Source: a virus. Taken from it: DNA of 31,635 nucleotides. Positions 11,855 through 26,755 of this stretch are shown in pieces. Numbering within the stretch: the first letter of the stretch is position 1; each line of letters starts with the position of its first letter. The DNA lies in IMG/VR virus record IMGVR_UViG_3300037485_000756, positions 1 through 31,635 of that record, one strand, 5' to 3'. The notes below the pieces were generated by a model. The model worked only from the letters and a program-made list of their open reading frames with translations, was not told the DNA's origin and searched no databases. The position numbers were made by a program, and so were the translations under genes.

Positions 11855-13474
11855 ATGGCAACTCCAGTTTTAAACAATGGTATATTCCTACGTGATACTC
11901 AGTATAATGCTAGTTCACACGTAGATTCATATCACCTTGTAAACATGTTGAAAGATGCAGAACCTATGGATTTAGGTCCTGTAGACATCTGGGCTATGAC
12001 TCAAAAAGTTGAAATGCCCCTTTATCAGATGTCATCTTTTGGTGGTAAAAACGTTATCAATGTAGATAATGTTCGTGGTGAGTACAAATGGCAAACGCCT
12101 GTAGCTCAAGATCTTCCTTATATTATTGAAGATATTGAATCTAACAATCAGGCTAAAGGTGTTGATGGTACTACATTCAAACTTAAACTTAACAAACGTG
12201 AATTTGGTCATGGTGATATTATCACTTATGATAAATATAACGGATGTGAACTTTATGTAGTTCCTGAAGAAGATATTCTTCCTATTGGTGATGGTTTCAT
12301 TTATACTGTTCAATTAGTAAATAATGATAACTACAAATTCTTAGACAATAAGTATTTGGCTAATGGAACTAAGTTCTTCCGTAAAGGTTCTGCAAGAGGT
12401 GAATATGGAGAAAGATTCTCTGACATTCAAACTAAATCAGGTTTTCGTGAATTCTACAACTTTGTAGGAGGTGCTGAAGCTCACGTACATTACTCTATTT
12501 CTTCACGTGCAGACATGATGATTAAAGGAGGAATGAATGCAGATGGTACTGTTCCTGTAACAGAAATCTGGAGAAACTTTGACAAATCTATGGATCCAGC
12601 AATCTCTAATATAGAGGATATGGTTGCTAAGATGGGTAAAGACTATGTAAAGCGTGCTATTGGAAATGGAGATTTATCTCGTACTTTCTTAACTTCTATG
12701 GAAGCTGCTCACTTAACTAAAATTGCTACTGACATTGAAACTTACCTTATGTGGGGTCATGGTGGTAGAGTTAGACAAGATGGTCCTGATGATTTACGTT
12801 TATCTGTAGGTTTGTGGAAACAACTTGATAGTTCTTTTAAAAGAGTTTATAATAAATCTTCTTTCAACCTTGAGTTGTTTAGATCAGAGCTTTATAACTT
12901 CTACGCTGGTCGTGTGGAGTTTCAAGGTCCAGATCCTAAGAGACAACTTATTGTTCAAACAGGAATGGGTGGTATGCGTATGGTTAATGAGGCTATCAAA
13001 AAAGAAGTTGCTACTTCTAACTTGAATATCCTTGCTGCTGATATTGGTGCTATTACTAACAAAGGAATGGATCTAGGTTTTGGATTTGCATACACAAGTT
13101 ATGTTATTCCTTTCTTAGCTAACGTTAAGTTTGTTCTTAACCCAGCATTTGATAACATCCATACTAATGATATTGAAAATCCAATCATTGATGGTAACCC
13201 ATTATCTTCTTATTCATTCATTATCTTTGATATCACTGATAACACTAATGACAACATTTACTTGTTGAAATTATCTTGGGATAATCAATTGAAGTGGTGG
13301 TATCAAAATGGTACTATGGATTATATGGGACGTAGTCAAGGATTCCAATCTTCAGGTCAGTTTAATGGTTATAGAGTATTTATGACTCAAACTATGCCAG
13401 CTATCTGGGTAAAAGATCCAACTAAAGTATTGAAAATTGTTATGAGAAACCCTATTACAGGTGGATCATTCTAA
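11855..13474 (+). CDS. Major capsid protein (HK97-like, crAss type)
   Basis: The 539-residue protein lies directly after the scaffold-like gene and before a strong terminator, the expected place for the major capsid protein. It begins MATPVLNNGIFLRDTQYN and has the mixed alpha/beta composition of HK97-fold capsid proteins, with an extended beta region (about 60-170), a helix-rich middle (AISNIEDMVAKMGKDYVKRA) and a C-terminal segment with WVKDPTKVLKIVMRNPITGG. Codon use shifts towards more C-ending codons (GAC, TTC, AAC) than in neighbouring genes, compatible with very high expression. It should form the icosahedral shell. The leader is almost pure A/T with no Shine-Dalgarno. Confidence 0.85.
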   Translation: MATPVLNNGIFLRDTQYNASSHVDSYHLVNMLKDAEPMDLGPVDIWAMTQKVEMPLYQMSSFGGKNVINVDNVRGEYKWQTPVAQDLPYIIEDIESNNQAKGVDGTTFKLKLNKREFGHGDIITYDKYNGCELYVVPEEDILPIGDGFIYTVQLVNNDNYKFLDNKYLANGTKFFRKGSARGEYGERFSDIQTKSGFREFYNFVGGAEAHVHYSISSRADMMIKGGMNADGTVPVTEIWRNFDKSMDPAISNIEDMVAKMGKDYVKRAIGNGDLSRTFLTSMEAAHLTKIATDIETYLMWGHGGRVRQDGPDDLRLSVGLWKQLDSSFKRVYNKSSFNLELFRSELYNFYAGRVEFQGPDPKRQLIVQTGMGGMRMVNEAIKKEVATSNLNILAADIGAITNKGMDLGFGFAYTSYVIPFLANVKFVLNPAFDNIHTNDIENPIIDGNPLSSYSFIIFDITDNTNDNIYLLKLSWDNQLKWWYQNGTMDYMGRSQGFQSSGQFNGYRVFMTQTMPAIWVKDPTKVLKIVMRNPITGGSF

Positions 13475-14604: not shown

Positions 14605-14766
14605 ATGGCAACTAAAAATACTCCAGTATATGCTTCTAAGAAAGCAACAGGAAGAACAGGTGGAACTAATGAGCCTGTATACGCAACTAAGCTTCCTACA
14701 GGGAACAAGAAAATTTCCCAAGGAAGTAACATTCCTGTACGTGCCTTAGGTAGAACAAAGAAATAA
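14605..14766 (+). CDS. Tiny basic protein with three internal repeats (53 aa)
   Basis: A 53-residue Lys/Arg/Thr-rich protein made of three imperfect repeats around TPVYASKKATGRTGG, EPVYATKLPTGNKK and IPVRALGRTKK. It has no acidic patch to speak of and no hydrophobic core, so it is probably unstructured alone and binds DNA, RNA or the capsid surface. First of a run of nine small, mostly Lys-rich genes (14605-16821) between the post-capsid gene and the first ring protein. The leader is A-rich without Shine-Dalgarno. Function unknown. Confidence 0.65.
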   Translation: MATKNTPVYASKKATGRTGGTNEPVYATKLPTGNKKISQGSNIPVRALGRTKK

Positions 14767-14791
14767 TTATTAACATTTAAAACTAATTAAG

Positions 14792-14932
14792 ATGTCAGAA
14801 AATATTTTAGTTTATATTCCTAACCCAAATGGTAATGGATATATTTTGAATCCTGAGTTTGCAGCTACTAAAGCTACTGTAGGTGTTGAGGCTCCAGTTA
14901 AAATAACTAAAGCAAAAAAAGCTAAGAAGTAA
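14792..14932 (+). CDS. Tiny protein with Lys/Ala tail (46 aa)
   Basis: A 46-residue protein with a small hydrophobic N-terminal half (MSENILVYIPNPNGNGYILN) and an Ala/Lys-rich tail ending KAKKAKK, similar in style to bacterial histone-like tails. Its place in a row of small basic genes with short spacers supports it being real. No family recognised. Confidence 0.6.
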   Translation: MSENILVYIPNPNGNGYILNPEFAATKATVGVEAPVKITKAKKAKK

Positions 14933-14959
14933 TTAGCTCATGGCTAAAAAGAAATAGTT

Positions 14960-15082
14960 ATGGCAACATCTAATAAAAATACAAAGAAGTCAGATTGTGG
15001 AGAAAAGACTAAAAAATCTTTTCAAGCAGGAATGATGATTGGTCGCAACATGAAGAAACCTAATTCTAAAAAGAAAAAGTAA
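14960..15082 (+). CDS. Tiny Lys-rich protein (40 aa)
   Basis: Forty residues, of which about twelve are lysine, beginning MATSNKNTKKSDCG and ending KKPNSKKKK. A short hydrophobic patch (SFQAGMMIGRNM) lies in the middle. The stop overlaps the next start (TAATG), giving translational coupling. A five-codon ATG-GCT-AAA-AAG-AAA-TAG reading frame lies just upstream at 14940-14957. Function unknown; nucleic-acid binding is suggested only by charge. Confidence 0.6.
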   Translation: MATSNKNTKKSDCGEKTKKSFQAGMMIGRNMKKPNSKKKK

Positions 15083-15558
15083 TGGTAAAAAATAAATTAA
15101 CATTGCTAGATTTAATGATTAGAAATACAATTCCTAAAGTTAATACTAAATCTATACTTGATCCTGGGTTTGGTGTAACGCCTCCTGATACATATAACCT
15201 AAGAAAAAAAGGTATTATGAATGATCCTGGATTTACTGCAAAACCTTCTGGTTATAAAGGTAAAGCTATGAAAACTGGAGGAACTACAGCTGCATGGACA
15301 AGATCTGAAGGTAAAAATAAAACAGGGGGTCTTAATGCTAAAGGTGTAGCAAGTTATAGAGCAGCTAATCCTGGTAGTAAACTTAAAACAGCTGTTACTA
15401 CTAAACCTTCTAAACTTAAAGCAGGTAGTGAAGCTGCAGGGAGACGTAAAAGTTTCTGTAGTAGGATGAGTGGGATGAAGAAAAAACTAACGAGTGCAAA
15501 GACTGCTAATGATCCTAACTCTAGAATCAATAAGTCTTTGAGAAAATGGAATTGTTAA
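15082..15558 (+). CDS. Basic protein of a widespread phage family (ends LRKWNC)
   Basis: A 158-residue very basic protein. The N-terminal third has two related turns (ILDPGFGVTPPDTYN and MNDPGFTAKPSGYK). The C-terminal ~90 residues contain AAWTRSEGKNKTGGLNAKG, AAGRRKSFCSRMSGMKKKL and the terminal SLRKWNC. This combination recurs in proteins from unrelated tailed phages, including large marine myoviruses, as a domain of unknown function; the two Cys residues (in SFCSRM and at the C-terminus) are part of the signature and could bind metal. The start overlaps the preceding stop (TAATG). Location among small basic proteins hints at a virion or DNA-associated role. Confidence 0.75.
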   Translation: MVKNKLTLLDLMIRNTIPKVNTKSILDPGFGVTPPDTYNLRKKGIMNDPGFTAKPSGYKGKAMKTGGTTAAWTRSEGKNKTGGLNAKGVASYRAANPGSKLKTAVTTKPSKLKAGSEAAGRRKSFCSRMSGMKKKLTSAKTANDPNSRINKSLRKWNC

Positions 15559-15565
15559 TATAATT

Positions 15566-15700
15566 ATGGCACAATCTTTTAAAAATAAGCCTGCAGTGGT
15601 TAGTCCAAAATCTGCACCTTTATCAGCTTCTAAGAAACCTGGAGCTGGTATAATGGCTATTAGATTTAAAAAAGGTGGTGCTACTAAAACTAAAAAATAA
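15566..15700 (+). CDS. Tiny basic protein (44 aa)
   Basis: Forty-four residues, starting MAQSFKNKPAVV and ending in GGATKTKK, with Ser/Ala/Pro/Lys-rich low-complexity sequence and a short hydrophobic GAGIMAIRF. It has the MA...KK layout of its neighbours. Eight nt separate it from the preceding gene and four from the next. No recognised family. Confidence 0.55.
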   Translation: MAQSFKNKPAVVSPKSAPLSASKKPGAGIMAIRFKKGGATKTKK

Positions 15701-15704
15701 TGTT

Positions 15705-15941
15705 ATGGCAATAAAGAAAACTATAACCAAAGCTAAAGCTCCTGCTGCTAAGAGAACATCTACAGTGGGGATTTCTATTTCTAAATCAGGTAAAAATGAT
15801 ATGAGAAAATGGGAAATTGAATCAGCATTGAGTACTTTAAAGAGAGCAGATGAAATTCGTAAAGACTCAAAAATGATGAATGATGTTAAAAGACTTGCAC
15901 AAGATCAAGTTAATGTTTTAAATAATTATACTAAATCATAA
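15705..15941 (+). CDS. Small basic helical protein (78 aa)
   Basis: The start is taken at ATG 15705, 4 nt after the previous stop; an upstream in-frame start at 15675 would overlap the preceding gene and break the MA-K start pattern. The 78-residue product has a Lys/Ala-rich disordered N-terminus (MAIKKTITKAKAPAAKRT) and a helical C-terminal part (MRKWEIESALSTLKRADEIR onward, then KRLAQDQVNVLNNYTKS). A basic tail plus a helical domain suits a nucleic-acid-binding or assembly protein; no family is recognised. Confidence 0.65.
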   Translation: MAIKKTITKAKAPAAKRTSTVGISISKSGKNDMRKWEIESALSTLKRADEIRKDSKMMNDVKRLAQDQVNVLNNYTKS

Positions 15942-15945
15942 TATC

Positions 15946-16065
15946 ATGGCTAAAAAAGCAACAGAAAAAGGCAAATGGATTCCACCATGGGCTAAAAATG
16001 TAAAAGAGGATAAAACTACACCTAAGAAAAAAGTAGTTAAGAAAACAACAATGAAAAAAAAATAA
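15946..16065 (+). CDS. Tiny Lys-rich protein (39 aa)
   Basis: Thirty-nine residues with about sixteen lysines: MAKKATEKGKWIPPWAKN in the first half and repeated K/T blocks in the second, ending TTMKKK. The WIPPW segment is an unusual aromatic-proline motif in an otherwise histone-tail-like peptide. It begins 4 nt after the previous stop and ends 6 nt before the next gene. Function unknown. Confidence 0.55.
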   Translation: MAKKATEKGKWIPPWAKNVKEDKTTPKKKVVKKTTMKKK

Positions 16066-16071
16066 AATAAA

Positions 16072-16632
16072 ATGGCAACTAAAAAATTAGCATGCGCTAC
16101 TTGTGGTGGTAAAATGAGAGGTGGTGGTAAGGTAGCTACTATGAAAACTAAAAAATATCAACCTGGGGGACCTGTTACTGGTTCTGAACAAGGTACAGGT
16201 TCTCAAATTGCAAAAACACTTGGTAAAGTTATTCCTACTCTAGGAGGAATTGCAATAGGAATTAAAGCTGGTGTAGATAAAATGAAAGCAAATAAAGAAA
16301 GTAGACAAGCTGCTAGAGAAGCTATTAAAGCAGGTACTGCTTTTAAAAGTGAAAAGCAACAAACTAGATTTGCAAAAAAAGAAAATAAAGAACAAATAAA
16401 AAATACCAAAAAAGAAAATAAAGCTACTGCTAAAGAATTAAAAAGTAATAGAGTAGGTGGAACTACTAAAAAGAAATATGCATTAGCTGGTACTGTTTCT
16501 ACAACTGGTGTTACTGATACTTGTAATGAAGGAGATCCAGGTTGTAAACAAAAGAAATCTTTTACAAAACAGCGTGATATGGCACCTAAAGGTGTAGATA
16601 CAGTTAGAGGATTTAGAAAACGTAAACATTAA
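16072..16632 (+). CDS. Basic Gly/Lys-rich protein with CxxC pair and hydrophobic segment
   Basis: A 186-residue strongly basic protein. It opens with KLACATCGGKMRGGGK, a C-x2-C with Gly-rich flanks; residues ~46-68 are a Gly/Ile-rich hydrophobic helix (AKTLGKVIPTLGGIAIGIKA); residues ~70-125 form a Lys/Glu/Gln-rich helix; and a second Cys pair lies near the end (DTCNEGDPGCKQKK) before a basic terminus (RGFRKRKH). The hydrophobic segment may insert in a membrane or pack in an oligomer, and the paired cysteines may bind zinc. The mix of a possible membrane-active helix and nucleic-acid-binding composition would suit an internal or ejected virion protein, but that is inference. Confidence 0.65.
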   Translation: MATKKLACATCGGKMRGGGKVATMKTKKYQPGGPVTGSEQGTGSQIAKTLGKVIPTLGGIAIGIKAGVDKMKANKESRQAAREAIKAGTAFKSEKQQTRFAKKENKEQIKNTKKENKATAKELKSNRVGGTTKKKYALAGTVSTTGVTDTCNEGDPGCKQKKSFTKQRDMAPKGVDTVRGFRKRKH

Positions 16633-16644
16633 AAATAATTTATA

Positions 16645-16821
16645 ATGGCAGCATCTAAAAAACCTAAGTTAGGAACTGGAACTAGATTTAAAGCTTTATC
16701 AAAGCAAATACAAAAGTCTGGTAAATCAAAAGATGCTGCTGAAGCTATTGCTGCTTCCATAGGACGTAAGAAATATGGAAAAACTAAATTTCAAAAACTT
16801 GCTTTAAAAGGTAAAAAATAA
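16645..16821 (+). CDS. Small basic helical phage protein (58 aa, IGRKKYGKxKF motif)
   Basis: A 58-residue basic protein reading GTGTRFKALSKQIQKSG, then SKDAAEAIAASIGRKKYGKTKF and a Lys-rich end. The R-F-x-x-L helix followed by A-A-x-I-G-R-K-K-Y-G-K-x-K-F is a pattern I know from small proteins in many unrelated tailed phages, usually near structural genes; no function is established. Its stop overlaps the start of the first ring-protein gene (TAATG), so the two are translationally coupled. Confidence 0.7.
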   Translation: MAASKKPKLGTGTRFKALSKQIQKSGKSKDAAEAIAASIGRKKYGKTKFQKLALKGKK

Positions 16822-17522
16822 TGAATAATACAACTATACAGCTTAAAGTTAAGCAGAGACTTAATAAGTTAGCAAGTCAGGATTATGATAATCTTGAATG
16901 CTGGCAAATTGTTGAGGCCTTTAATAAAGGTATGGTTGACTGGTGTCGTAGAAACTTACATGGTAATAATCTATACAAAACAGGAGATGAAGCTTCAAAA
17001 AGAAGGATAGACGATATGAATATCCTTCTTAGTGAAGTTGCTATTACACTTGTTAAAAAAGATGCTTACTATGAATCAAATGGTTTACCTACGGATTACT
17101 TTGAATGGAAAAGAGTAAGTGCTAAAACAAATACTTCCTGTTGTAAAGATAGAAGAATGGTTATCTACTTAGCAGAAGAAGCTAACGTAGATACTTTATT
17201 AAGAGATGTACTTAAGAGACCTAGCTTTGATTGGGGTGAAACTTTTTGTACACTTAAAGATGGTAATGTAAGGATATATACCAATAATGAATTTGAAGTT
17301 CCTAATGCAAGGTTATCTTTCTATAGACAACCATTAAGAATACAAATTGTAGGTTGTGTTGATCCATATACAAATGTTGTTTCTACAGTAGAAGTTGAGT
17401 GTGAGTTTAAAGATGATATCATTGAATTATTTGTAGATGAAGCAGCAAAAATAATTGCTGGAGATATAGAATCAATTAATCAAATTTCTATTCAGGATAG
17501 TTCTGTAGAAAATAATAATTAG
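16821..17522 (+). CDS. Portal-vertex ring (connector) protein, first copy
   Basis: A 233-residue protein with helical N-terminus (KVKQRLNKLASQDYDNLECW, then FNKGMVDWCRRN), a beta-rich middle (about 90-175, with PTDYFEWKRVSA and NARLSFYRQPLRIQ) and a C-terminal helix (DIIELFVDEAAKIIAGDIES). This helix-beta-helix layout and the closing helix after a strand pair are typical of the ring/connector proteins that stack below the portal in crAss-like phages, comparable with P22 gp4-type adaptors. Similar layouts occur in the products of the genes at 26087 and 26755. Translation is coupled to the preceding gene by a TAATG overlap. It ends with TAG. Confidence 0.65.
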   Translation: MNNTTIQLKVKQRLNKLASQDYDNLECWQIVEAFNKGMVDWCRRNLHGNNLYKTGDEASKRRIDDMNILLSEVAITLVKKDAYYESNGLPTDYFEWKRVSAKTNTSCCKDRRMVIYLAEEANVDTLLRDVLKRPSFDWGETFCTLKDGNVRIYTNNEFEVPNARLSFYRQPLRIQIVGCVDPYTNVVSTVEVECEFKDDIIELFVDEAAKIIAGDIESINQISIQDSSVENNN

Positions 17523-17527
17523 AAAAA

Positions 17528-17986
17528 ATGGATAAACCAAGACTATTAAAAAGAGATGCTCCGTCATCTAATACAACTACAAGTTATTCAGCTCCTTCTG
17601 GTAATACTGTAGAATCAATGACTTCTGCATGTGTATCAGAATTAATGAATGCTGCTACTGCATTTCATAAACTACATCTTAAAGTAACTGGTGCAGGATC
17701 TTATGCTGCACATAAAGCTTTGAATGATTTATATGATGCGTTACCTGGTCATGCTGATGACTTAGCTGAAGGGTTTCAAGGAGCATCAGAAAAGTTACTT
17801 GCTTATACAGAAGTAGCTCCAAAAAAATTAGATTCTGTTGATTCAGGATTAAATTATATAAGAGAATTATATGATATGGTAACTGGCTTACAAGCTAAGA
17901 TGCCTTACTCAGAATTAGTAAATGCATTAGATACTGTAAAAGATACTCTTGCTTCTGCTAAATATAAATTAATTTTCTTAAAATAA
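17528..17986 (+). CDS. Dps/ferritin-like four-helix protein
   Basis: A 152-residue protein with a ~30-residue polar N-terminal tail (MDKPRLLKRDAPSSNTTT...) and then four predicted helices. Aligning LHLKVTGAGSYAAHKAL and GHADDLAEGFQ with E. coli Dps places His50, His62, Asp77 and Glu81 at exactly the spacing of the Dps ferroxidase residues His51, His63, Asp78 and Glu82; the fifth, Asp67, is replaced by Asn66 (Asp67 follows). The L-K-V-T-G turn corresponds to the Dps W-N-M/V-R/T-G signature. Dps-type proteins form 12-subunit shells that oxidise iron and may bind DNA. Encoded 5 nt after the first ring protein, so likely a late, possibly virion-associated protein. Length is close to Dps (~160). 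Activity is inferred. Confidence 0.75.
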   Translation: MDKPRLLKRDAPSSNTTTSYSAPSGNTVESMTSACVSELMNAATAFHKLHLKVTGAGSYAAHKALNDLYDALPGHADDLAEGFQGASEKLLAYTEVAPKKLDSVDSGLNYIRELYDMVTGLQAKMPYSELVNALDTVKDTLASAKYKLIFLK

Positions 17987-18052: not shown

Positions 18053-19714
18053 ATGGCTTATTTTAATCATGCTTTTAAAAAGACTTTTCTGGGGACAGGA
18101 AATGACTTAAATGCAGTTTCTGTAACAGATCCTTTAAATGGAAATGTTTACGTAGTTTCTACTGACTCTGGATATTTAACTACTACTAGTGTACCTACTT
18201 ACATGCTAAATGTAATGTCTCAGTCACAAGAAGTAAATCCTTATTCAAGTGCAACATCTCTTTCTACATGGAATAGTGGATATTTTGGATTATTTAATCC
18301 TAAGAATAACTTGTCTATTTCACCAGAAAATTGTTGTAATCTTTATATTGCTGGTTCTGCAATATATTCTAATGACAAGATTGGACCTTACCATGGTGGT
18401 TACACTGAAACTAACAAATCTAAGATGGTAAATCCTAGATATGTACAAAAATTTTATCGTGTAGATCCTTGTAATCCTCAAAATGAAGTTCTTCATGTAG
18501 GTTCTACATTCTGGACTGCAGGTGGTTCAGTTCTAGGAACAGTAGCTGCAGGTGGACCTGCTACAGGTTATGCTCCTAATCTTATTGACTTCCCTGTTCT
18601 TGCAATAGGAGGAACTGGTACAGGGTTAACAATTTTAATTACTACTAGTGCATTAGGCGTAGTAACTGCTTGGTCTATTGCTCAAGCTGGTGGTAAAGGA
18701 TATACTGCTGGTGATATTGTTACCCTTACAGGTGATACTTCTGGTACTTTTCAAATTACAATTAATACTGTAAGTGATGCTTATGGTGATGCTAATTGCT
18801 GTAAAGATTTCTTATGTGGTGAAACTTATTATTTACGTGTAGATATTAAAGGTTCTCCTGCATTACGTTTCTTAAATCACAATGCATACTTAACTGCTGA
18901 AGCATATGCAGGATGTTGCCCTGAAGGGTCAATTGTACCTGTTGCTATTGATTCAACTAATATTATGATTTTATGGGCTAATGCTTTATTGAGATCATTA
19001 ATTACTTCTCCATTCTTGCAAATTGTTATTCAAGATGAAGCTGGTGTACTTTGGTATGCTCCAGGAACTTCTGCTGCTGATCTTGCTGCATTAGGTGGTG
19101 ATACTTGGGATAACTATGTATCTGCAGGACATGTTGATGGTGCTTGTGCAGGTTTGATTTTAAATGGTGCTTATGTAGATACTAAATTTGGAGATTGTAC
19201 TTTCCAAGTTTCTGACTTTTATGAAAAACAACCAGTTAAACTTTATGCATCTGAAGTAGATTACACTGGTGATCCATGTGTATTTACAGGTATCTGTTCA
19301 GTTATTGAATGTCAAGGTGTTCAAGCAATGGGTCTTGGTGAATCAGTTCTTCGTGATCTAGTTCTTTCTGAGTCTTATCGTCAAAACTTCCTTGCAAGCA
19401 GTGACTTAAGAATTCGTGAGATTACTCAAGGAAATCAAATTGTATCTGCAATTAATCGTAATGCGTTATATACACGTTACTATTTACTACATAGCGTTCC
19501 ACGTTTCAATAATCCTTCAGGAACATTTGATAATGATCGTTATTTGTTAGAAGTAGTTTCTTTAAATGCATTAAATAGTTTTGAAGAAGATGTGAATAGT
19601 TGGTTAAATGGATGTGGTACTGAATGTGCATTTGAAGAATTTACTTGTGTAACAGAATGTTCTACAATTACATTTCCTCCAATGCCTATAAAACCTATAA
19701 GACCTGAAATGTAA
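18053..19714 (+). CDS. Cysteine-rich virion protein with embedded Gly-rich beta module
   Basis: A 553-residue beta-rich protein beginning MAYFNHAFKKTFLGTG, with paired cysteines (CC at 94-95, 249-250, 293-294) and a Cys-rich end. Residues ~160-240 contain the Gly-rich unit LAIGGTGTGLTILITTSALG ... QAGGKGYTAGDIVTLTG, a structural module found in virion and fibre proteins of many unrelated phages. The C-terminal third (ESVLRDLVLSESYRQNFLAS, then INRNALYTRYYLLHSVPRFN) looks like a conserved assembly domain. There is no enzyme motif. In crAss-like phages, large proteins at this place are structural; a head-decoration, vertex or tail-component role is possible but cannot be decided here. C-ending codons are frequent near the end, suggesting high expression. 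Confidence 0.7.
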   Translation: MAYFNHAFKKTFLGTGNDLNAVSVTDPLNGNVYVVSTDSGYLTTTSVPTYMLNVMSQSQEVNPYSSATSLSTWNSGYFGLFNPKNNLSISPENCCNLYIAGSAIYSNDKIGPYHGGYTETNKSKMVNPRYVQKFYRVDPCNPQNEVLHVGSTFWTAGGSVLGTVAAGGPATGYAPNLIDFPVLAIGGTGTGLTILITTSALGVVTAWSIAQAGGKGYTAGDIVTLTGDTSGTFQITINTVSDAYGDANCCKDFLCGETYYLRVDIKGSPALRFLNHNAYLTAEAYAGCCPEGSIVPVAIDSTNIMILWANALLRSLITSPFLQIVIQDEAGVLWYAPGTSAADLAALGGDTWDNYVSAGHVDGACAGLILNGAYVDTKFGDCTFQVSDFYEKQPVKLYASEVDYTGDPCVFTGICSVIECQGVQAMGLGESVLRDLVLSESYRQNFLASSDLRIREITQGNQIVSAINRNALYTRYYLLHSVPRFNNPSGTFDNDRYLLEVVSLNALNSFEEDVNSWLNGCGTECAFEEFTCVTECSTITFPPMPIKPIRPEM

Positions 19715-19745
19715 TTTGAAAATAAATTAATAATTACCAAAATAA

Positions 19746-19789
19746 AAAAGGGAGAGTGAGAGTTTATCTTTCCTCTCCTTTTTCTTTAT
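19746..19789 (+). terminator. Probable intrinsic terminator after the 553-aa virion gene
   Basis: AAAAGGGAGAG (19746-19756) pairs with CTCTCCTTTTT (19773-19783), 11 bp with one G-U wobble, over a 16-base loop; the T-run forms part of the stem and continues as CTTTAT. It falls 31 nt after the gene's stop and 12 nt before the next start. The long loop lowers confidence somewhat. Confidence 0.65.
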
Positions 19790-19801
19790 ATATATTAACA
19801 T

Positions 19802-20347
19802 ATGGCAACTCACGTACTAAGTTTAGAAGTTCCTGACGTAATGAATCCATGTATCATAAAGATATTTGATACAAGTGTTTATGCTTCAACAATTCCAGTT
19901 GTATGTCCTATACTGGCAATTACAGTTCCAGGATTTAACTACTCATCAGAGATATCTGTTGTAGAAGGGTTTAGTGAAACAATTACTGCATGCGATTTAG
20001 GATTACAATCTACTGGATGTGATTTATCAGAGTTTGCAAACTTACCTGATGGTATTTATATCATTAAGTATAGTGTAGCGCCTAATAATGTTGTATATGT
20101 AGAATATAACCATTTAAGAATTACACAAGCTTTAAACAAGTATTATAAAACAATGTGTGATCTTGACATTGCTGATTGTGAACCATCAGCAGATACAAAA
20201 GCAAAATTAAAAAAATTACAAACAATTCGTACTTATTTAGATGCAGCAAAAGCTAAAGTAGAAATATGTCATGAACCAGATAAGGGAATGCGTATTTACA
20301 AGTATGCGCTTAAACTATTAAGTAAAATGAATTGTTCAAATTGTTAA
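19802..20347 (+). CDS. Two-domain Cys-containing virion-region protein
   Basis: A 181-residue protein. The N-terminal ~105 residues look like a beta-sandwich (VLSLEVPDVMNPCIIKIFDT ... YIIKYSVAPNNVVYVEYNHL), similar in style to small Ig/fibronectin-type adaptor domains. The C-terminal ~75 residues are helical (NKYYKTMCDLDIADC, AKLKKLQTIRTYLDAAKAKVE, RIYKYALKLLSKMNCSNC), ending in a C-x2-C. Similar proteins occur between structural genes of other Bacteroidota phages, but function is unknown. Cysteines at residues 17, 35, 64 and near the end might form metal sites. Start ATG is preceded by an AT-rich leader. An adaptor or attachment role for neighbouring fibre proteins is a guess. Confidence 0.65.
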   Translation: MATHVLSLEVPDVMNPCIIKIFDTSVYASTIPVVCPILAITVPGFNYSSEISVVEGFSETITACDLGLQSTGCDLSEFANLPDGIYIIKYSVAPNNVVYVEYNHLRITQALNKYYKTMCDLDIADCEPSADTKAKLKKLQTIRTYLDAAKAKVEICHEPDKGMRIYKYALKLLSKMNCSNC

Positions 20348-20356
20348 TCATAAAAA

Positions 20357-20369
20357 AAACCAACAACTT
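20357..20369 (+). promoter_or_regulatory. AAACCAAC leader element, copy 3
   Basis: AAACCAAC, then 5 nt (AACTT) and the ATG at 20370: the third exact copy of the octamer at identical spacing. It lies 9 nt after the preceding stop codon. Confidence 0.5.
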
Positions 20370-20534
20370 ATGGCAACATGTTTAAATTGCAAGAAAAAAT
20401 TATCTTGTGGATGTCAACAAAGAAAAGCAACAGATGGTAAATCTGTATGTACAAACTGTTTAGCAACATATCAAGCAGGACTTAAAAATACTAGAGTAGT
20501 GCCACCAGTGGCAGATCCTATTTGGAAAAAATGA
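20370..20534 (+). CDS. Small zinc-ribbon-like protein (54 aa)
   Basis: A 54-residue protein with six cysteines in the order C-x2-C (4,7), C-x-C (13,15), C-x2-C (27,30): MATCLNCKKKLSCGCQ and SVCTNCLATY. This can bind one zinc ion in a ribbon/knuckle fold. The C-terminal half is basic and Pro-containing, ending DPIWKK. It carries the AAACCAAC leader. It lies between two Cys-rich virion-region genes, so it could be a structural adaptor or a regulator; no family is recognised. Confidence 0.7.
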   Translation: MATCLNCKKKLSCGCQQRKATDGKSVCTNCLATYQAGLKNTRVVPPVADPIWKK

Positions 20535-20550
20535 TATAATAAATAAAAGG

Positions 20551-22152
20551 ATGGCAAATTACTATGTATATATACCTTGCCCTGGTTCCACTGGGACACA
20601 GTTCTATTCTAATGTTGCACCTACTTATCCAGGTGCTTACATAAGATTTGATTCAGGATCAGATCTGCTTCAATATGGAAAATGTTTCCATGTTATGCTT
20701 GTTAGTTTAGAGGTTCCTCCAACTCCTTTAGTATCCATTAATTGGTCAACAGTAGTATACAGTTTTTGGAATAATAAGTGTTCTAACTGTGTTGAGCAAG
20801 CTGTTTATTATCAATTAGTTAATTGTTTAGATACTACAGATACTATATGTGTATTAAATGATTTAACAGCTGAATATAATGCAGGTTGGGTATTAACTTT
20901 ACCTGCAGATCCTACAAAATGTTGGTACATTGAATGGCCAATTAATTGCATTAGTCCAGTTAATATAATCTATACTCAATATTATCCTGATTGTATAACG
21001 TGTGGATTAAAAGATGTAGTAAACTATGAGTTAATAAACTGCTTACATCCTGAAGAAATAATCTATACAAGTATTGACCTATCTTTATATGTGGGATTAA
21101 TACTATCTCTTATAGAGTATCCAGATGATTGTTGGGAGGTTAATGCTATTAATACACAAATTCCTACAGATTTAACAATTACTGTAAATAATTCATTTGT
21201 TACATGTACAGAGTGTACACAACAATATTACTTATTAGAAGATTGTAGTAGTTCAAATCCTGAATTAAACATAATTACAAATACTGATTTATCAGCTTAT
21301 GTAGGTACATCATTAACTGGTGTTATTGTTCTTAATTCATGTCCTGGTGTATGTTGGATAGTTAGTGAAACTGATATTACAACTAACTCACAAGTTGTCA
21401 ATATAACTGGTGAATTTACTTCTTGTGAAACATGTATGGCAAGTATGCCTTGTATATGTAGTACAGTTAAAAATAATTCTATTGGTGCATTACAATATGA
21501 GTATGTAGACTGCAATGGAATAACTCAGTCAATTATAGTAAACTCAGAAGTTACAAGTCCTAAGATATGTTTGGTCAAATGGCTTTATCCAGATAATACA
21601 AGCACATATAAATATTATGGTAACTGTATTGATCAACTATGTCCTGTTGTAACTTTTCCTACAAGAACTGTAAAACCTGGGTACAATACTCCTGGATGTT
21701 CTCCAGAAAAGTATGAGCAAATTATGTGTAACTTTTCTGAAGGAGTTTATAGAGATATAATGGTACAAGCATATGGTATTACACCATGCTGTGGAGAAGA
21801 TGATCATAGATGGACTATTAGAAAAGAATTAATAGAACTTAAAGCAATACAAGATCCTAATTATATATGTTTAGCTTTAGGATGTGGGTGTACTACATCA
21901 ACACAAGGATTAACTCCATGTATACCACCTCCAGTTACATGTGTGTTATATTCAATAAATATTCAATCAGCTACAAAAAATTTTTTACATTATTTAGATT
22001 GCGCTGGAGTTAGTCAAATAGAAAATGTTGATGCTGCAGAGCAACCAGTAGAATATATAATATGTGGAATAGCTGGTCAAACTAATAGCGATATATATTG
22101 TGATGGGTCAACTGTAGTTTTTAACTTTACAGAAACAACAACGCTCTGTTAG
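20551..22152 (+). CDS. Cysteine-rich repeat protein, probable virion or fibre component
   Basis: A 533-residue protein with about 38 cysteines. Three tandem units of ~65-70 residues (about 86-151, 158-222 and 226-295) share the pattern Y-Y-x-L-x-x-C, then D-L-S-x-Y-V-G, then C-W-x-V/I, then F/Y-x-x-C-x-x-C. The rest carries further C-x2-C and C-C motifs and two related Y-x-D-C-x-G segments (about 318 and 485). The remainder is beta-rich, Thr/Asn/Ser-rich, as in phage adhesion or fibre proteins. Disulfide or metal cross-linking would stabilise such repeats. No enzyme motif is seen. It precedes the two fibre-like genes and is likely part of the same appendage, an inference from position and composition. 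Ends with TAG. Confidence 0.7.
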   Translation: MANYYVYIPCPGSTGTQFYSNVAPTYPGAYIRFDSGSDLLQYGKCFHVMLVSLEVPPTPLVSINWSTVVYSFWNNKCSNCVEQAVYYQLVNCLDTTDTICVLNDLTAEYNAGWVLTLPADPTKCWYIEWPINCISPVNIIYTQYYPDCITCGLKDVVNYELINCLHPEEIIYTSIDLSLYVGLILSLIEYPDDCWEVNAINTQIPTDLTITVNNSFVTCTECTQQYYLLEDCSSSNPELNIITNTDLSAYVGTSLTGVIVLNSCPGVCWIVSETDITTNSQVVNITGEFTSCETCMASMPCICSTVKNNSIGALQYEYVDCNGITQSIIVNSEVTSPKICLVKWLYPDNTSTYKYYGNCIDQLCPVVTFPTRTVKPGYNTPGCSPEKYEQIMCNFSEGVYRDIMVQAYGITPCCGEDDHRWTIRKELIELKAIQDPNYICLALGCGCTTSTQGLTPCIPPPVTCVLYSINIQSATKNFLHYLDCAGVSQIENVDAAEQPVEYIICGIAGQTNSDIYCDGSTVVFNFTETTTLC

Positions 22153-25502: not shown

Positions 25503-26090
25503 ATGAGTGGACAATTTAAAAAACCAGATTTAAATGCGCCAAGGTTCAGAGAGAAAAGTGTGCATATGTTATGTCTTTCATTGTTTAAGAAATTTAAAAA
25601 GAAATTTCCTGAACATAACATAGTTTATAGTGAATTCAAGTCTATAATTAAAACTTATAATGAGCAACTTGTTGATGCTATTATTGAGTTTAGAGATGGC
25701 ATTGAATTACCAGAAAGTTTGGGTCATATATTTATAGGAAGTTGTCCTGCTATGACTAAACGAATTAATATAGATTATAAAAAGTCTGGTGAGTATGGTG
25801 TATTAACTCAACATAGAAATTGGAACAGTGATAACAAAGTAATGAAGATATTTTTTACTAGTGGTCAAGTAAGATATAAAATAAAGAATAAAGAAATATG
25901 GGCCTTTACTGCAAATAGAGAATTTAGAAGAAAGGCCTCTAAACTTTATGTTGAAGACTATACAAAGTATATGTATATCAATAATAATAAAAAGATATCA
26001 ATGTTGTTTAAAGAAGGACATAATAAAATGCATAGAAATATGGAAAGAAATAAAGTTGCTTCTGAAGACTATAATGAATTTGACATATGA
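25503..26090 (+). CDS. Conserved phage hypothetical protein
   Basis: A 195-residue basic protein with blocks LNAPRFREKSVHML, FKKKFPEHNIVYSEFKSIIK, IEFRDGIELPESLGHIFIGS and the central GVLTQHRNWNSDNKVMKIFF, followed by NKEIWAFTANREFRRKASKL. This combination (R-D-G-x-E-L-P-E-x-L-G, then H-R-N-W-x-S-D-x, then a W-x-F-x-A-x-R-x-F-R/K segment) recurs in conserved, uncharacterised proteins of many Bacteroidota and other phages. Its high lysine content suits nucleic-acid binding, but no catalytic site is visible. It is the first gene after a terminator and promoter, overlaps the next gene by 4 nt (ATGA), and precedes two ring proteins and the main tail protein, so a role in tail assembly is possible. 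Confidence 0.75.
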   Translation: MSGQFKKPDLNAPRFREKSVHMLCLSLFKKFKKKFPEHNIVYSEFKSIIKTYNEQLVDAIIEFRDGIELPESLGHIFIGSCPAMTKRINIDYKKSGEYGVLTQHRNWNSDNKVMKIFFTSGQVRYKIKNKEIWAFTANREFRRKASKLYVEDYTKYMYINNNKKISMLFKEGHNKMHRNMERNKVASEDYNEFDI

Positions 26091-26755
26091 CAACAATAAA
26101 TGATTCAGTTTCTAGATTAAGAAATACAATTAAAGCAGTTAAGGAAGATGCATTTATGACAGATAGATACATCTATAGCATTATTATTAAATATGCTAAG
26201 ATGCTTATACGCCGTCAGGATAATGAGAACAAAATCTTTAAGTTTCAAAGTTTATTTAAAACTCTACCCTGTGTTGAATTAATAGAAATAGATAGAGTTG
26301 AAGCTTGTTGTGAAGGAATTAAATCAGGATGTATTATTAAGAGAACAAAGGACAGAGTTCCTAATGTCATTGAAGGAGCTTTTGGACCAATTATTAGAAC
26401 TGTTTCATCTATTGATGGTTCTAATCTTGTGTATAGAACTTATCCAACAGCTTATACTAGAATGACACATGCCTCAGGTTATAGGTATAATACAAATAAA
26501 TACTACTGGTATCTTAATGGATATTTATATATTCCAAATGTAGCTTGGGAGGCAATTAGTATTACAGCTTTATTTGAAGATAACATTAGCATGTTTACTT
26601 GTGAAGTAGATGATTGTACACTAGCTCAAGATAGACCTATTGCTGTTCCTGAATATTTATTTGCTGAGATTGAGCAATATGCACTTAAAGAAATTTTAAC
26701 TGCAGGATCAATACCTGCAGATACTGCTGATGATTCACAAAATGTATTAAGATAA
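26087..26755 (+). CDS. Portal-vertex ring (connector) protein, second copy
   Basis: A 222-residue protein with an N-terminal helical part (DSVSRLRNTIKAVKEDAF, then MTDRYIYSIIIKYAKMLIRR), a beta-rich middle (about 60-180, with RTYPTAYTRMTH and YYWYLNGYLYIPNVAW) and a C-terminal helix (EYLFAEIEQYALKEILTAG). The helix-beta-helix architecture and the closing E-x-x-A-L-K-E helix are typical of ring/adaptor proteins of the crAss-like tail. The gene is coupled to its neighbours by ATGA and TAATG overlaps. Assembly below the portal is inferred from architecture and position; which ring it forms cannot be told. Confidence 0.68.
   Translation: MTTINDSVSRLRNTIKAVKEDAFMTDRYIYSIIIKYAKMLIRRQDNENKIFKFQSLFKTLPCVELIEIDRVEACCEGIKSGCIIKRTKDRVPNVIEGAFGPIIRTVSSIDGSNLVYRTYPTAYTRMTHASGYRYNTNKYYWYLNGYLYIPNVAWEAISITALFEDNISMFTCEVDDCTLAQDRPIAVPEYLFAEIEQYALKEILTAGSIPADTADDSQNVLR

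Follow-up and report, generated by a model that had tools for sequence, protein, structure and literature searches.

What kind of protein is encoded between the virion genes of a crAss-like phage when its sequence recalls the bacterial mini-ferritin Dps, and does it act in the infected cell or travel with the particle? The first-pass annotation of this DNA had read the gene as a Dps/ferritin-like protein that a phage might package. We examined it in its window, which here means the whole stretch of DNA analysed, a 31.6 kb IMG/VR virus record covered from position 1 to 31,635.

Genomic setting of the gene

The gene and the features that place it in a phage genome are as follows.

11855..13474, + strand: crAss-type major capsid protein, which identifies the phage (PF23898 Crass_capsid, E 2.1e-31)
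14605..16821, + strand: run of small, mostly Lys-rich ORFs preceding the upstream neighbour (from ORF translations)
15082-15558: DUF6321-domain protein inside the small-ORF run (PF19846, E 2.7e-19)
16821..17522, + strand: upstream neighbour in nearly every related locus, a probable virion structural protein (PHROG_29507, E 9.7e-14)
17528..17986, + strand: Dps-like mini-ferritin gene (DUF5856 / PHROG_858), 152 aa, ATG start
18053..19714, + strand: downstream neighbour in most related loci, likewise a probable virion structural protein (PHROG_6005, E 5.6e-5)
26087-26755: ring protein 2 homologue (match to crAss001 gp40, E 9.6e-5)

Because the window holds the Crass_capsid gene and the ring protein 2 homologue together with TerL and portal genes, we assign the phage to the crAss-like group. 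The proposed position of the Dps-like gene inside a virion gene block was borne out in related loci, which are not all distinct: a PHROG_29507-type gene lies directly upstream in 121/127 of them, a PHROG_6005-type gene lies downstream in 121 of 128, usually about 0.5 kb past the start of the Dps-like gene, and the crAss capsid gene and the downstream virion-type gene are kept in most. The upstream gene had been described as a portal-ring gene ending 5 nt before the Dps-like gene; the 5-nt gap stands (stop at 17522), but the neighbour is a PHROG_29507 probable virion protein, and its profile reached only E 0.37 against the crAss001 tail-barrel ring protein 4/5.

The run of tiny basic proteins noted further upstream is also present, as short Lys/Arg-rich ORFs at 14605-16821. 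By tblastn, one ORF at about 15702-15941 and the DUF6321 protein were found in relatives, whereas most of the others were not; the run possibly encodes fast-evolving basic proteins of the virion interior. On the other side of the gene, the region 18053-22152 encodes unusually cysteine-rich proteins, including a 54-aa CxxC/CxC protein at 20370-20534.

Fold and putative metal site

The window protein belongs to Pfam DUF5856 (PF19174; E 2.4e-13, 51.4 bits against a cut-off of 34.6, residues 58-148) and matches PHROG_858 (E 2.1e-20, residues 29-150 on positions 12-127 of a 129-position profile). This large phage family, whose gene occurs in more than 1000 phage records, includes RI.-1 of the model phage T4 and carries the RefSeq label 'starvation-inducible transcriptional regulator'. 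A literature search on DUF5856 found nothing, and a search on crAss-like phages with ferritin or Dps found no structural account. The sole homologue in genome contigs, at 57% identity, comes from a Sphingomonadaceae MAG contig of 7.9 kb, RFPL01000035.1, which is probably a binned phage fragment and hence was not counted as a cellular gene.

As a single sequence, the protein falls below the Pfam Ferritin cut-off (PF00210; 14.7 against 24.5 bits, E 0.029), and its best match in a PDB search had an E of 0.008. A profile of 64 homologues placed Dps proteins at the top of the PDB matches, with the Helicobacter pylori neutrophil-activating protein HP-NAP at E 7e-5; this similarity was confined to helices A and B. 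AlphaFold2, run with the homologue alignment on a metal-free monomer, predicted the four-helix bundle expected of a ferritin-like protein, with helices at 28-50, 58-87, 104-124 and 128-151 (pTM 0.78; pLDDT 88 overall, with most of the core above 90), and Foldseek searches of the PDB with this model were again led by Dps proteins (probability 1.00, TM about 0.6-0.7, best E 4e-3). Against viral models, Foldseek returned phage proteins, some of them crAss-like entries from the gut that bear the name DNA-binding protein or DpsA. Five further BFVD models (A0A6J7WIS1, A0A6J7WPK9, A0A6J7XDU5, A0A6J5LAB8 and A0A8S5MNG7) embed ferritin-like domains in long phage proteins annotated as prohead protease, ParB/sulfiredoxin or NUDIX hydrolase, and it is possible that Dps-like domains have been joined recurrently to head or DNA-processing proteins.

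The residues that would form the metal site, together with the N-terminal tail, map to the gene as follows.

17528..17605, + strand: disordered N-terminal tail, residues 1-26 (pLDDT is low across residues 1-27), in which residues 7-9 form an LKR motif
17666..17677, + strand: His47-x-x-His50, candidate ligands for metal on helix A; each is kept in all 102 crAss-branch and all 15 divergent homologues
17711..17725, + strand: His62 and Asn66, the latter at the fifth Dps ligand position; His62 never varies, and 100/102 crAss-branch homologues have Asn66
17756..17770, + strand: Asp77-x3-Glu81, candidate ligands for metal on helix B; both are likewise kept throughout the 102 crAss-branch and the 15 divergent homologues
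17930..17932, + strand: Asp135 of helix D, an extra near-invariant acid; 102/102 of the crAss branch and 14/15 divergent members, with Glu in one; on a helix whose alignment with Dps is uncertain, it may be a metal ligand or a pore residue

Profile-profile alignment set His50, His62, Asn66, Asp77 and Glu81 opposite His51, His63, Asp67, Asp78 and Glu82 of E. coli Dps without a gap (P = 1.4e-5), so the exact Dps spacing claimed for the two histidines, Asp77 and Glu81 was recovered, as was the likeness of the turn between them, where HLKVTG aligns with the HWNMRG or HWNVKG of Dps. The Dps side of this alignment comprised 25 sequences, E. coli Dps and 24 other Dps proteins that we gathered; a search with the E. 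coli sequence used recovered genuine Dps genes, the best of them 81% identical.

We found His47, His50, His62, Asp77, Glu81 and Asp135 in all 102 distinct crAss-branch homologues, a set in which the counts for His62 and Asn66 are partly biased, as one search pattern contained both. The 15 divergent DUF5856 members, collected mostly by tblastn without that pattern, have a median pairwise identity of 27% and come from crAss-like phages, the podovirus ctEw122, P19250A, the jumbo phage phiR1-37, T4, RB49, CC31, a Proteus T4-like phage, phiAS5, CBA120, ValerieMcCarty03, MA9V-2 and others. They share only six invariant columns: His47, His50, His62, Ala64, Asp77 and Glu81. Since five of the six are putative ligands, we conclude from sequence comparison that the metal site is under selection: three histidines and two acids are retained, while nearly all other positions vary among family members whose identity to the window protein ranges from 19 to 55%. 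Neither outcome named beforehand as refuting the first reading, a fold other than a four-helix bundle or homologues without the His/His/Asp/Glu positions, was seen.

The likeness to Dps has limits. The fifth ligand of Dps, Asp67 (or Glu), is absent from the window protein, where Asn66 stands as first reported; elsewhere in the family this position is Asp in T4 and MA9V-2, Glu in RB49, phiR1-37 and ValerieMcCarty03, and Asn, Gly, Gln or Arg in other members. The Dps tryptophan beside the first histidine, Trp52, is likewise absent, with Leu51 in 102/102 crAss-branch homologues, and residues 88-103 of the AlphaFold2 model lack the short BC-loop helix of Dps. The replaced acid and the missing tryptophan suggest a chemistry slower than, or unlike, that of classical Dps. 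We call the protein 'Dps-like' rather than Dps because the fifth acid, the tryptophan, the BC helix and the Pfam score all depart. The ferritin-like part of the first reading, fold and ligands, therefore holds on the predicted model, and the assignment to Dps proper does not.

A single helix of the model carries both His62 and Asp77, separated by 15 residues, which amounts to about four turns or ~22 Å. Because His62 and Asp77/Glu81 would be too distant to share one metal within a subunit, an antiparallel pairing of two subunits, as in Dps, is indicated by the geometry, and such a pair would form two metal sites at its interface. The tail in front of the bundle has a distinct character in the crAss branch: the LKR motif occurs in 95/102 homologues and was absent from the other window proteins tested, and the net charge is usually +1 to +3 for the tail and mostly -3 to -5 for the core.

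Family members in virions and in a prohead protein

Proteomics of virions from the window phage or its close relatives was not found in the literature. The evidence for detection in virions comes from two mass spectrometry studies, both of which, according to their authors, also had probable contaminants in their preparations (PMC10892097 and PMC13119998). The CBA120 paper names no orf108, and the ViI proteome (Pickard 2010) was left out. The first study reports Sajous1 gp217, from a Vi01-like phage, with ten spectra from CsCl-purified virions and a Phyre2 assignment as 'ferritin' at 96.7% confidence (PMC10892097); our sequence comparison showed it to be identical to CBA120 orf108. A role in the tail and in iron-linked entry was proposed there, and the accessible text draws no link to T4 RI.-1 or to crAss-like phages (PMC10892097). 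In the second study, ValerieMcCarty03/04 gp108/100 gave 26/27 spectra from CsCl-purified virions against the authors' cut-off of 15, more than the prohead scaffold/protease (PMC13119998). We identified these proteins as the orthologue of T4 RI.-1: 80/128 residues are identical and the gene adjoins a lysis-inhibition gene. Two virion proteomes therefore include DUF5856 members, under the unrelated labels 'ferritin' and 'starvation-inducible transcriptional regulator', and the Vi01-like and T4-like particles support the suggestion that phages can package a protein of this kind.

A third family member, phiR1-37 g280, is labelled 'phage structural protein' in its GenBank record; others tested this protein as a uracil-DNA-glycosylase inhibitor, with a negative result (PMC10303552). 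The Dps-like gene of Vi01-like phages is the last of a cluster that they conserve (Sajous1 gp214-gp217, L168:1642-5301; CBA120 orf111-orf108, L140:906-4300). The products of Sajous1 gp214-gp217 are among the reported virion-detected proteins (PMC10892097) and could form a co-packaged set.

The Chryseobacterium phages MA9V-1 and MA9V-2 carry the DUF5856 domain within their Peptidase_S77 prohead core protein. The prohead core serine protease of MA9V-2 (OR513085) is 1207 aa long (L142:1603-5226) and contains 15 (I/L)NE motifs, against 1.0 obtained by shuffling; the capsid protein of the same phage has INE and LNE near its N-terminus. Prohead proteases of the T4 type cleave on the C-terminal side of (I/L)xE, so the Dps-like domain would be freed inside the head, and by this analogy the core protein is probably a self-cleaving polyprotein that releases it there.

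The gene occupies other positions elsewhere in the family. It lies directly 3' of a 'head to tail connecting protein' gene in podovirus ctEw122 and directly 5' of a holin gene in P19250A, and in T4-like phages it is rI.-1, which adjoins the lysis-inhibition gene rI near tk and is not among the head genes. The T4-like homologues start MKF-x-DF, which resembles the capsid-targeting peptide of T4 internal proteins but has no such cleavage site, and may hint at packaging.

Candidate roles and comparison with known systems

Since DUF5856 members are found in purified virions, some phages probably carry a putative metal-binding, ferritin-like protein alongside their DNA. We lean towards the same reading for the window protein, as a virion-associated Dps-like DUF5856 metal-binding protein that handles iron near phage DNA. 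It would be produced together with virion proteins, pair or form a shell, and most likely be carried in or on the particle with the genome, where its basic tail of about 25 residues could anchor it on DNA or on a partner in the virion. The metal may be iron (or another transition metal), bound and possibly oxidised, and its binding would keep Fenton chemistry off phage DNA in the particle, just after entry, or both. Iron oxidation, DNA compaction and a dodecamer are conjectural for the window protein, and none of the analyses supported the anaerobic host or the part in lysis that the first-pass annotation suggested. An extension of this proposal to DUF5856 as a whole, as widespread virion-carried mini-ferritins that control iron and reactive oxygen at packaging or entry in T4, in Vi01 and in crAss-like phages alike, is held only tentatively.

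The protein might instead act only in the infected cell, late, by lowering free iron and reactive oxygen, its presence in virions being carry-over. Many phages do carry genuine Dps genes, as our own census also showed, and such a role has been proposed for them (PMC8008677; PMC6669764), and the rI/tk location of the T4-like homologues fits it. This reading is harder to reconcile with spectral counts of a Klebsiella phage homologue above those of known virion proteins, with the fixed virion-gene neighbourhood in crAss-like phages and with the fusion to a prohead protease in MA9V, and we judge it unlikely, if a serious contender. Alternatively, the protein may no longer be a ferroxidase and may serve the particle structurally or by condensing DNA, with a metal such as Zn or Mn that just holds the dimer together. 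This would account for the near-fixed asparagine at a fifth position that varies elsewhere, for the lack of the tryptophan and for the basic tail; we consider it distinctly improbable given that the remaining ligands are invariant across very large divergence and that five phages (T4, RB49, phiR1-37, ValerieMcCarty03 and MA9V-2) keep an acid at that position.

A 'Ferrojan horse', in which the particle displays iron to exploit siderophore or iron uptake at entry, was put forward for the Vi01-like homologue (PMC10892097). The same study saw similar infection efficiencies on tonB, feoB and double mutants, and the MA9V polyprotein suggests a location in the internal core, which together make this reading very improbable. 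Loss of tonB or feoB changed plating little in that account (PMC10892097), so no iron-linked phenotype is known. A transcriptional regulator, for which the inherited RefSeq/PHROG label speaks, can be set aside as scarcely credible, since the predicted fold is Dps-like by AlphaFold2 and Foldseek and no DNA-reading domain was found in the window protein; the label probably derives from old names of Dps-family proteins.

Phage Dps genes (PMC8008677, PMC6669764), DUF5856 as a catalogued family and the virion 'ferritin' of Vi01-like phages (PMC10892097) were already known. Within the searchable literature, two points appear new: that crAss-like phages, T4 RI.-1, a prohead polyprotein and the virions of Vi01-like phages are linked through one family, and that this family keeps a distinctive set of ligands under selection, with four departures from Dps. 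A family of unknown function that includes a T4 gene thus appears to encode a ferritin fold with a strongly selected putative metal site. On this ground the RefSeq family records, that of T4 RI.-1 included, ought to lose the label 'transcriptional regulator', which is probably a wrong name for a Dps-like protein. If a metal-handling protein does travel with the DNA, packaging or entry of the genome would involve iron and oxidative chemistry as well, a notion open to ordinary genetics in T4 through RI.-1.

Among known systems, the nearest cellular counterparts are HP-NAP, MrgA, Dpr and E. coli Dps, which share with the window protein the four-helix ferritin fold, the equivalents of H51/H63/D78/E82 and an acidic core with a basic tail; HP-NAP and Streptococcus pyogenes Dpr also have HxxH. 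In contrast to Dps, the window protein lacks the BC helix, has Leu for Trp52, Asn for Asp67 and an extra invariant histidine, shows significant sequence similarity only over helices A-B and scores below the Pfam Ferritin cut-off. The Dps proteins encoded by Gratiaviridae, Lactobacillus and Streptomyces phages, for the first two of which an antioxidant role has been proposed (PMC8008677, PMC6669764), are likewise phage-borne members of the ferritin superfamily, but they match cellular Dps directly and form a group separate from DUF5856. Within DUF5856, T4 RI.-1, RB49 RI.-1, CBA120 orf108 and phiR1-37 g280 have the same invariant His/His/His/Asp/Glu set and a similar core length, and Sajous1 gp217 is a member from a contractile-tailed enterobacterial phage (PMC10892097). 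The crAss-like branch differs from T4 RI.-1 and its like in a longer N-terminal tail with LKR and a near-fixed Asn66, and its gene sits among virion genes, whereas the T4-like gene lies next to rI.
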